A stretch of 64,000 nucleotides of DNA, taken from Erythrobacter sp. AP23. GTDB lineage: Bacteria; Pseudomonadota; Alphaproteobacteria; Sphingomonadales; Sphingomonadaceae. Each line of letters starts with the position of its first letter. The first letter of the stretch is position 1. The DNA lies in contig NZ_LNBY01000001.1 in assembly GCF_001542855.1 (NCBI RefSeq), positions 620,001 through 684,000 on the forward strand, read 5' to 3'. Below are positions 31,303-33,455 of this stretch, one piece after another. A program made the position numbers and the translations under genes. Under the pieces are notes generated by a model. The model searched no databases. It was not told where the DNA came from and was given only the letters and a program-made list of their open reading frames with translations.

Positions 31303-32055
31303 CTACCCCATCATCGCCATGCCGCCGTTCACATGCAGCGTCTGGCCGGTAATATAGGCTGCTTCGTCGCTGGCGAGATAGGTCACGGCTGCGCCGATCT
31401 CCTCGCCCTCGCCCATCCGGCCCATCGGGATGCGGTCATTGATCGCGGCCTTCTGCTCGTCGGTCAGCGCATCGGTCATCGCGGTGCGGATAAAGCCCGG
31501 GGCGACACAGTTGACGGTGATGTTGCGGCTGGCGAGCTCCTGCGCGAGGCTCTTCGACATGGCAGTCAGTCCGCCCTTCGCCGCGGTGTAGTTCATCTGC
31601 CCCGGATTACCCGTGTGACCGACCACGCTGGTGATCGAGATGATCCGGCCGCCTTTTGCCCTCATCATAGGGCGTGCGCTCGCGCGCATCAGGCGAAAGC
31701 TGGCTTCGAGGTTGATGCGGATCACATCGTCCCATTCCTCATCCTTCATCCGCATGGCGAGATTGTCGCGCGTGATGCCGGCATTGTTGACCAGGATGTT
31801 CATGCTGCCGAGCGTGTCGACCGTGGCGGGGATCAGCTCCTCGACCTGTGTCGAATTCGACAGATCACAGGTGATCTCGACATGATCGTGGCCGAATTCG
31901 TCGTTCAACTGCTCGCGAAAGGCGCGCAGCTTGTCTCCGTTGGAACCCGATAGCGCGAGCCGTGCGCCCTGCTTGGCCAGCGCATAGGCGATCGAGGAGC
32001 CGATCCCGCCGCTGGCACCGGTAACGAGGGCGGTCTTGCCTTCAAGTGAGAACAT
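31303..32055 (-). CDS. fabG: 3-oxoacyl-ACP reductase FabG
   Basis: A 250-residue SDR. KTALVTGASGGIGSSIAYALAKQGA is the NADP-binding motif, NNAGITRDNLAMRM the NNAG block, and the active-site Ser, YTAAKGG Tyr-x-x-x-Lys and QTLHVNGGMAM are all as in FabG. It reduces 3-oxoacyl-ACP in fatty acid synthesis, or may supply (R)-3-hydroxyacyl precursors. A strong AGGAGG lies 5 bp upstream (32056-32064). It lies downstream of fabD, separated by the GxxExxY cassette. Confidence 0.96.
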   Translation of the reverse strand: MFSLEGKTALVTGASGGIGSSIAYALAKQGARLALSGSNGDKLRAFREQLNDEFGHDHVEITCDLSNSTQVEELIPATVDTLGSMNILVNNAGITRDNLAMRMKDEEWDDVIRINLEASFRLMRASARPMMRAKGGRIISITSVVGHTGNPGQMNYTAAKGGLTAMSKSLAQELASRNITVNCVAPGFIRTAMTDALTDEQKAAINDRIPMGRMGEGEEIGAAVTYLASDEAAYITGQTLHVNGGMAMMG

Positions 32056-32070
32056 ATTTCCTCCTCAATG

Positions 32071-32518
32071 CGCTCACAGAGGCGCAGGGGCGCAGAGGGG
32101 ATGCACCCTAGTCGTTGATGACGCGGCGAATTCCCTCTTTCATGGTTTCGCCGGAAAAATTCAGCAGCAGCCCCAATCGGCTGTCGGTGAGCCGCAGATA
32201 GGTCAGCAACTGCTTGGCGTGCAAGTTAGACAGCTTCTCTACCGATTTGATTTCGAGGAGCAGCACGCCGTCGATCCGCAGGTCGACGCGGAACGCCTTC
32301 GAAAAGGTCAGCCCGTCATAGTGGATGTCGACCGGCACTTGCCGGTCGACCTTGAATCCGCGGCGCTGAAGGCTACCGGCAAGAACCGTTTCGTAAACGG
32401 ATTCGAGCAGGCCAGGGCCAAGTTCGCGGTGGATGCGAATGCACTCCTCGATCACGGCGCCGGTCAAGCGATTGAGGTCGATCTCCATGGCCTCTGCGCC
32501 TCAGCGCCTCCGTGAGCG
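32071..32518 (-). mobile_element. GxxExxY gene cassette bounded by 28-bp imperfect inverted repeats
   Basis: Positions 32071-32098 and 32491-32518 are inverted repeats with 25 of 28 matches. They read GAGGCGC...GCGCAGAGG inward and start CGCTCAC at the outer ends. They enclose exactly one gene. The right repeat ends one base before the fabD stop codon, and the left ends a few bases from the fabG Shine-Dalgarno. The right arm also carries the GAGG ribosome binding site of the enclosed gene. No transposase gene or target duplication is evident. This looks like a gene-sized insertion unit. Confidence 0.6.
32108..32488 (-). CDS. GxxExxY family protein (PD-(D/E)xK-like)
   Basis: A 126-residue protein with the namesake motif GPGLLESVYE (G-x-x-E-x-x-Y). 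RVDLRIDGVLLLEIKSVEKLSNLHAKQLLTYLRL has a nuclease-like D-x(n)-ExK core. The family is widespread in bacteria, archaea and metagenomes, often singly placed between unrelated genes, and has no established function. Here it lies between fabD and fabG, in the same orientation, inside 28-bp inverted repeats. Its start codon is 3 bp from the right repeat. Confidence 0.92.
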   Translation of the reverse strand: MEIDLNRLTGAVIEECIRIHRELGPGLLESVYETVLAGSLQRRGFKVDRQVPVDIHYDGLTFSKAFRVDLRIDGVLLLEIKSVEKLSNLHAKQLLTYLRLTDSRLGLLLNFSGETMKEGIRRVIND

Positions 32519-32519
32519 T

Positions 32520-33455
32520 TCAAATTTCCTTCGCGAAGTTTTCCAGGTCTTCCATGGTGACGAGGTTGACCGTGGTCGCCTCCTTATCGATGCGGCCGAC
32601 CATCGGGCCGAGCACTTTCCCGCCCAGTTCGACGAAGCGCTCCACCCCCGCCTCGCGCATCGTGAGGACGCTCTCGCGCCAGCGCACGCGACCGGTAATC
32701 TGTTCGACCAGCAGACCCTGTTCTTCCGCCGGGTCGGTGACGCGCGCGGCGGTGACATTGGCGAACAACGGGACGGTGAAGGCCTGAGGGGGTGTCTCTT
32801 CCAGCGCGTTCTTCATGCGCAGGGCAGCGGGACCCATCAGCGAACAGTGGAAGGGCGCCGAAACGGGCAGTTTGATGCCGCGCTTGACGCCGTGATCCTT
32901 GGCCATTTCTATGGCGCGCTCGATCGCCTCGGCATGGCCGGAAATCACGACCTGCGTGGGATCGTTGTCGTTGGCGACTTCGCACACCTGACCCTGTGCG
33001 GCAGCTTCGGCAAGGGCGGTCGCCTTGTCGATATCGGCGCCGAGCAGGGCGGCCATCGCGCCGACGCCGATCGGGACGGCATCCTGCATGGCGATACCGC
33101 GAAGGCGCAGCAGCTTGGCGGTATCGGTCAGAGAGAAGGCTCCGGCAGCGCACAGCGCGCTGTATTCGCCCAGCGAGTGGCCTGCGACGCAATCGGCCGC
33201 ATCGGCGAGCGCAACGCCGAATTCCTTCTCCAGCACGCGCGCCGTGGCGACCGAATTGGCCATGATCACCGGCTGCGCGTTGGCCGTCATGGTGAGCTCG
33301 CTCTCGGGCCCGTCCTTCATCAGCGCGGAAAGCTTCTGCTTCAAAGCCTCGTCGACTTCTTCGAACACCTCGCGCGCATGCGCGCTGGCATCGGCGAGTG
33401 CGGCACCCATGCCGACCTTCTGGCTGCCCTGTCCGGGAAAGATGAATGCAGTCAT
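32520..33455 (-). CDS. fabD: Malonyl-CoA:ACP transacylase FabD
   Basis: A 311-residue transacylase starting MTAFIFPGQGSQKVGMG. The nucleophile is in GHSLGEYSAL (Ser), with the Arg and His of the family in the SAPFHCSLM region. It loads malonate on ACP for fatty acid synthesis. The start is set by the conserved FPGQGSQ; the frame extends upstream. Its stop abuts the inverted repeat of the GxxExxY cassette, so read-through into fabG would have to cross that cassette. Confidence 0.97.
   Translation of the reverse strand: MTAFIFPGQGSQKVGMGAALADASAHAREVFEEVDEALKQKLSALMKDGPESELTMTANAQPVIMANSVATARVLEKEFGVALADAADCVAGHSLGEYSALCAAGAFSLTDTAKLLRLRGIAMQDAVPIGVGAMAALLGADIDKATALAEAAAQGQVCEVANDNDPTQVVISGHAEAIERAIEMAKDHGVKRGIKLPVSAPFHCSLMGPAALRMKNALEETPPQAFTVPLFANVTAARVTDPAEEQGLLVEQITGRVRWRESVLTMREAGVERFVELGGKVLGPMVGRIDKEATTVNLVTMEDLENFAKEI

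Follow-up and report, generated by a model that had tools for sequence, protein, structure and literature searches.

Inverted arms around a GxxExxY gene between fabD and fabG hint at a hitherto undescribed type of very small mobile element

The window analysed here, a stretch of 64,000 nt from Erythrobacter sp. AP23 (NZ_LNBY01000001.1, positions 620,001–684,000, forward strand; coordinates are window-based unless another locus is named), holds a 448-bp unit (32071–32518) that consists of a 126-aa GxxExxY gene between inverted arms and is inserted between fabD and fabG. Reading along the minus strand, fabD (32520–33455) ends with its stop codon 1 bp from the unit and is followed by the upstream arm (32491–32518, minus strand), which comprises three ~9-bp units (CGCTCACGGAGGCGCTGAGGCGCAGAGG in gene orientation) and has its outer end next to fabD. 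Then come the GxxExxY gene itself (32108–32488, minus strand), the downstream arm (32071–32098, plus strand), an inverted copy that shares 25 of 28 bases with the upstream arm, and a 15-bp stretch (32056–32070, minus strand) that leads to the fabG ATG and contains a GAGGAGG that could serve fabG, the downstream neighbour (31303–32055, minus strand). A sequence-only reading of the locus had described both repeats, with 25 of 28 bases matching, and a single base between the outer repeat end and the fabD stop. Alignment confirmed the repeats, whose match can be extended to 33 nt at 85%, and base 32519 alone lies between unit and stop codon. The same reading took a GAGG in the right arm for the gene's own ribosome binding site; the motif is present, but it ends just 2 nt before the ATG and is therefore unconvincing in that role. 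A second GxxExxY gene, 59% identical to the first, occurs in the window's own genome at another position, referred to below as site 2 (L002, G000:C12). Its arms (1441–1481 and 1884–1924 of that locus) form an inverted repeat of 41 nt at 85%, immediately past the upstream stop codon.

The window protein was assigned to PF13366 (Pfam; E 2e-37, 128.6 bits vs. a curated cut-off of 22) and TIGR04256 GxxExxY (NCBIfam; E 9.4e-37, 125.9 bits vs. 35). An HUH tyrosine transposase domain was absent from the Pfam scan, which to E 10 returned PF13366 alone, while the NCBIfam scan gave TIGR04256 plus one chance match at 0.098. Among 199 aligned rows, Y97 (window protein numbering) is invariant, and D69, E79, K81 and Q93 are each conserved in 198; together they form a D...ExK...QxxxY arrangement that we take to be the RecB/Cas4-type active-site motif. 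When an AF2 model of the protein (pLDDT 93) was compared with the PDB, nuclease folds headed the list, the nearest structure being Cas4 SSO0001 (Z 9.4, rmsd 4.3 over 101 residues; next Z 8.4); Foldseek against the PDB placed Cas4 SSO0001 at E 3e-3, with no match below 0.001. The nearest viral models were those of an unnamed protein (E 4e-8) and of a Halogranum virus nuclease (E 2e-6). By residue conservation and modelled fold, GxxExxY is thus a predicted PD-(D/E)XK nuclease that shares the D...ExK...QxxxY residues and the fold with Cas4 and RecB-like nucleases. Cas4 has an iron–sulphur cluster, whereas the 126-aa GxxExxY protein possesses, by eye, a single cysteine, which excludes a cluster of the Cas4 type. 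Further searches with the protein returned no match among the sequences of solved structures, just a weak RT-associated PDDEXK match in PADLOC (E 9e-4), none in PHROGs at E <0.1 and none in a phage search; six candidate stretches in viral contigs yielded no confirmed case.

With arm pairs defined by an inverted alignment score of at least 30, in windows that reach into the end of the ORF, 171 of 198 GxxExxY gene rows were found to carry them; the rows are mostly from Sphingomonadales, and a few are fragments of one broken gene. The share was 87 of 91 at fabD–fabG, 61 of 70 at other Sphingomonadales sites and 23 of 37 in other taxa, leaving 14 of the latter rows with no pair. A gene at the fabD–fabG site lacking repeats had been named in the sequence-only reading as evidence against a link between the two; such cases are rare, a detectable pair being absent from 4 of 91 rows. 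In slightly narrower windows, 158 of 198 observed rows reached the score, as compared with 1 of 194 at a distance of 500 bp and 0 of 594 in a shuffle control. Pairing the upstream arm of one gene with the downstream arm of another still produced a scoring match in 228 of 1500 cases, so the arms share a family design, namely about three units of 8–10 bp (CRCNRAG) spaced ~9 bp apart, and they were seen in at least three phyla. At four loci from another family of the same phylum (L217, L219, L221, L234), a 10-bp unit type, CCACAGATGAACACAGAT, replaces the ~9-bp unit; it resembles a common environmental intergenic repeat.

The appearance that many fabD–fabG genes are armless was rejected as an artefact of too narrow a downstream window, because the 3′ end of the ORF includes the downstream arm in many Sphingomonadales. 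At L024, L060, L074 and similar fabD–fabG loci, this arm is read as part of the C-terminus of GxxExxY, and the repeat therefore encodes a protein tail.

Since the arms enclose the coding region beside the upstream stop and near the start, they might pair across the gene in the mRNA and thereby control translation or excise the gene from operon transcripts. We consider such an RNA device very improbable, given that mismatches between arms show no G–U preference (111 G–U-compatible vs. 101 A–C-type transitions) and that doublets of arms exist with no gene between them, as described below.

A covariation test on arms picked by their mutual match is circular, and was discarded in favour of arms detected by profile. 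In the 115 units with both arms so detected, a unit's own two arms agreed at 0.925, compared to 0.863 with the arm of the nearest protein relative and 0.723 overall; own-arm agreement was higher than that with the nearest relative in 59 units, equal in 41 and lower in 15. Arm version also tracked protein relatedness (Mantel r 0.64 for the 115 units and 0.53 for fabD–fabG alone, with 0 of 1000 permutations as high in either case).

The gene itself is sporadic, being present in 68 of 298 genomes of the window's family and in 65 of 398 in a draw from the phylum, and 72 of its 80 best relatives in named genomes adjoin fabD and/or fabG. A fabD match was found in 37 same-genus genomes, and examination of the 30 best loci revealed 25 to be empty, with fabD and fabG directly joined, four to contain a GxxExxY unit, and one to have no fabG found nearby. 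The four filled loci (the window, G026, G036 and G002) differ in their arm versions. In the absence of a unit, the stop codon of fabD and the start codon of fabG overlap, and most such alleles encode a FabD C-terminus of FAKENA or FAKENG, vs. FAKEI in the window. Altogether, 10 of 41 genus genomes bear the gene, in 14 units (15 rows, as one gene is in two pieces), and all 14 units found sit at just three junctions: fabD (4), site 2 (8) and site 3 (2). One of the eight site-2 units (in G005) is placed ~0.4 kb beyond the upstream gene, after an apparent extra small reading frame; at the third junction, a unit is also present in G205, a further genome of the genus.

Measured to the upstream co-directional stop codon, the arm start lies at a median distance of 5 bp, with 114 of 151 units within –10 to +20 (naive ORF rule). 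These GC-rich genomes have open antisense frames, which makes counts of neighbour orientation untrustworthy, so that this neighbour analysis uses the stop-codon distance only. At site 2, two types of protein are found in different species, and their arms differ as well. The genus fabD–fabG units were rejected as one clade in an AU test of four rows (p=1.7e-5), a group named after a quick tree had been seen, while a three-row version gave p 0.0505; L018 and L092 almost certainly represent one locus (both contigs 589373 bases, tree distance 0), so that the two tests in effect compare three units and two units, respectively. It follows from the rejection that units arrived at the fabD–fabG junction, whether by filling it or by replacing an occupant, on at least two occasions. 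Broken GxxExxY copies are likewise found in place with arms still recognisable, one with an in-frame stop (L313, G026), one with an internal deletion (L314, G002) and one with a split reading frame (L310, G008). On plasmids, where seven records contain GxxExxY, the six examined, which come from other phyla, showed arms in Bacteroides, Bernardetia and Gemmatirosa, and none in Fusobacteria, Prevotella and Treponema.

These site data bring in the chief rival explanation, a homing-type selfish gene whose nuclease cuts a conserved target near the 3′ end of fabD and of a few other genes, and which is copied into gene-free alleles by repair, the arms being secondary and serving as binding sites or expression signals. 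Homing aimed at junctions would account for the confinement of the 14 genus units found in 41 genomes to three junctions, for arm starts so close to the upstream stop, for the sporadic presence of empty, intact and broken alleles, and for at least two arrivals at one site. PD-(D/E)XK homing endonucleases exist, in the same catalytic superfamily as that predicted for GxxExxY, and have in common with the unit a site-specific, sporadic allelic presence, gene-free alleles and degraded copies. To our knowledge, however, no homing genes lie between inverted tandem arrays that have gene-less doublets at other places. Doublets of the same arm design occur away from the junctions, which is unexpected from homing alone, and we regard this explanation as rather unlikely.

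Comparing junctions with and without the gene, as proposed in the sequence-only reading, defined empty and filled alleles but brought to light no target duplication: by eye, none was clean at fabD–fabG or at sites 2 and 3, and none was evident at one gene-less site set against an empty allele at 96% flank identity, but divergence blurs the edges in these comparisons. Two units of one genome align over 468 bp, comprising the gene plus 27–41 bp on each side, at 76% identity, and this unit-sized homology stops at the arms. Among 209 rows, no full-length units at different sites exceeded 76% DNA identity, the exception being a partial copy at L213. At that locus (1–187 and 338–710; G596:C274), a full GxxExxY gene adjoins an identical partial copy at the contig end, and behind each copy the next gene begins in a similar way, as could result from tandem duplication or an assembly effect.

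Inverted ends and homology that ends at the arms (468 bp, 76%, in one genome) would also fit a ~450-bp transposon of the classical terminal-inverted-repeat type that encodes a PD-(D/E)XK transposase. With no target duplication seen by eye, no near-identical full-length copies at different sites and a strong site preference, this reading appears highly doubtful. The proposal that gene and repeats travel together is well supported by the arms at 171 of 198 rows, by arm versions that follow the protein and by different clades at the same junction; that the nuclease itself moves the arms is what we infer.

The main new result concerns gene-less arms. A profile (R1) built from 50 arms, which matches the window's upstream arm at E 2.4e-5 and its downstream arm at E 0.011, finds strong arm matches away from genes in genus genomes. 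We examined 29 gene-less genus loci, part of those listed (26 in gene-bearing genomes and 3 in the gene-free G029), and observed inward-facing pairs at 20, outward-facing pairs at none and nested arrangements, with one pair within another's spacer, at 5. Across the family, and assuming that the gene census and the arm census cover the same 298 genomes, 52 of the 68 genomes with the gene have arms, as do 27 of the 230 without it. Even when only arms beyond two per gene are counted, 36 of 68 gene-bearing genomes possess them, as compared with 27 of 230 gene-free genomes with any arm (odds ratio 8.5, p 9.7e-12, among the matches listed per genome and with kinship ignored). A repeat widespread in the absence of the gene was the other observation named in the sequence-only reading as breaking the link, and in part it is made. 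Gene-less arms do exist, in the inspected loci mostly as structured doublets; they cluster in genomes that bear the gene, which would suit non-autonomous passengers, but 27 of 230 gene-free genomes contain them too.

For the genus alone, gene-less arms were found in 5 of 10 gene-bearing vs. 1 of 31 gene-free genomes (p 0.0018), at an E threshold of 0.001 that was chosen once the list had been seen. Apart from G029, 14 genus genomes that lack the gene gave weaker matches (E 0.0058 to 0.086), which are left uncounted; three such places inspected by eye lie apparently in coding sequence. The most extreme case, a genome with eight GxxExxY matches, has at least 139 arm matches (150 candidates scored), many of them, judging from 20 places inspected, as ~74-bp hairpins with the same arm. 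Seven further gene-bearing genomes have 4 to 92 arm matches, and eight gene-free genomes have 6, 2 and, for the rest, none. The window's own genome yielded no arm pair lacking a gene, an absence that weighs little because R1 likewise failed to detect the arms of the second unit there. To date, gene-less doublets have been seen in one family.

At one intergenic locus, doublets that differ in arm version are found in two close species (L408 in G735, L409 in G008); the element is missing from a third species, whose flank is 96% identical, and G026 contains a further doublet within this intergenic region. The spacers of L408 and L409 match only in opposite orientation (16.5 vs. –0.5; best of 500 shuffles 12), and it looks as if the inverted arms allow flipping. 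In six gene-free genomes, 20 arm loci comprised 11 inward and 6 outward pairs, with no gene remnant at any of the 20. Arm pairs facing outward, with their outer ends adjacent in reversal of the usual doublet, were noted at L379, L387, L458, L460, L471, L472 and L476, in some other genomes. At L438–L450 (G167), many gene-less doublets lie between two copies of a palindrome, GGCCCCGCGCAGGCGGGGCC, and form a composite repeat with it.

Gene-less arms match the arms of the resident gene weakly (combined p 0.024 over 13 genomes; significant alone in 1 of the 13, and in 5 no better than the arms of other genomes). This weak match, the persistence of arms in 27 of 230 gene-free genomes and the proximity of doublets to other palindrome families would suit host-dispersed repeats that are moved by an unrelated enzyme, e.g. 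a RAYT, with GxxExxY genes riding in doublets by ordinary recombination. The presence of arms at 171 of 198 gene rows, spanning three phyla or more, arm versions tied to protein relatedness, and the enrichment of arms beyond those of the genes in gene-bearing genomes (odds ratio 8.5) argue against it, and we deem this origin of the arms unlikely.

We instead favour, as a reading whose chances we put at about even, that the 448-bp unit belongs to a widespread family of tiny mobile or horizontally exchanged nuclease elements, with the gene-less doublets as non-autonomous companions. In each element, one PD-(D/E)XK nuclease gene would be enclosed by a pair of inverted arms built from short tandem units. 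The nuclease probably recognises the arms, perhaps as hairpins or cruciforms exposed in replication, and cuts there; in the ensuing repair, a unit or doublet would be copied to a site that is new or empty, with both arms of a unit kept alike, and gene units would have given rise to the doublets. Somewhat more tentatively, GxxExxY could represent a second, HUH-independent class of enzyme that spreads REPIN-like elements, recognising, homogenising and dispersing its arms, the ~450-bp unit and the doublets.

Known systems offer partial parallels. In the portions of the papers available to us, REPINs are described as inverted doublets of which RAYT-bearing genomes hold more (PMC8049555), RAYTs as HUH tyrosine enzymes acting on single-stranded REP (PMC8266576), and RAYT genes as flanked by REPs or long inverted repeats (PMC3733652). 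The GxxExxY unit thus shares with the REPtron (RAYT/TnpAREP plus REP/REPIN) a gene flanked by inverted repeat copies, gene-less inverted doublets with a short spacer elsewhere (here in relatives of the window genome) and a greater abundance of doublets in gene-bearing genomes (for REPINs, PMC8049555). It is nevertheless not a REPtron, because RAYTs are HUH enzymes (PMC8266576) and GxxExxY is a predicted PD-(D/E)XK nuclease; moreover, no GTAG tag was seen in GxxExxY arms, and REP is palindromic while the GxxExxY arm is a tandem array of ~9-bp units. By analogy, the gene-less doublets resemble REPINs in how they stand to the GxxExxY unit as REPINs stand to RAYTs. TIRtrons, as far as the available part of their description goes, likewise have a RAYT-like gene between long inverted repeats, with relatives of the repeat occurring singly, as dimers and in groups, but their TIRYT proteins keep the HUH domain and the catalytic tyrosine (PMC3733652), whereas GxxExxY belongs to another family. 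MITEs, in the same source (PMC3733652), are short gene-less elements with inverted ends and no coding capacity, as are the doublets; MITEs, however, resemble degenerated insertion sequences, whereas the only gene linked to the doublets is that of a predicted nuclease, and no target duplication was seen by eye.

In the literature searched, which included few subscription journals, we found no description of a GxxExxY unit/doublet system: GxxExxY was named in two papers, in passing only, and the arm repeat strings appeared only in a paper on fish eDNA. Arms, gene and gene-less doublets together suggest a tiny mobile DNA system of a hitherto undescribed kind. Measured against the sizes of insertion sequences, a ~450-bp unit would rank among the smallest gene-carrying mobile elements. 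If GxxExxY proteins do spread REPIN-like elements, this would provide the first function for the curated GxxExxY family and an origin for intergenic interspersed repeats of the CRCNRAG type, and REPIN-like dispersal would have evolved with an unrelated nuclease. The tie of GxxExxY to its own arms and to gene-less doublets gives the family a directly testable role.
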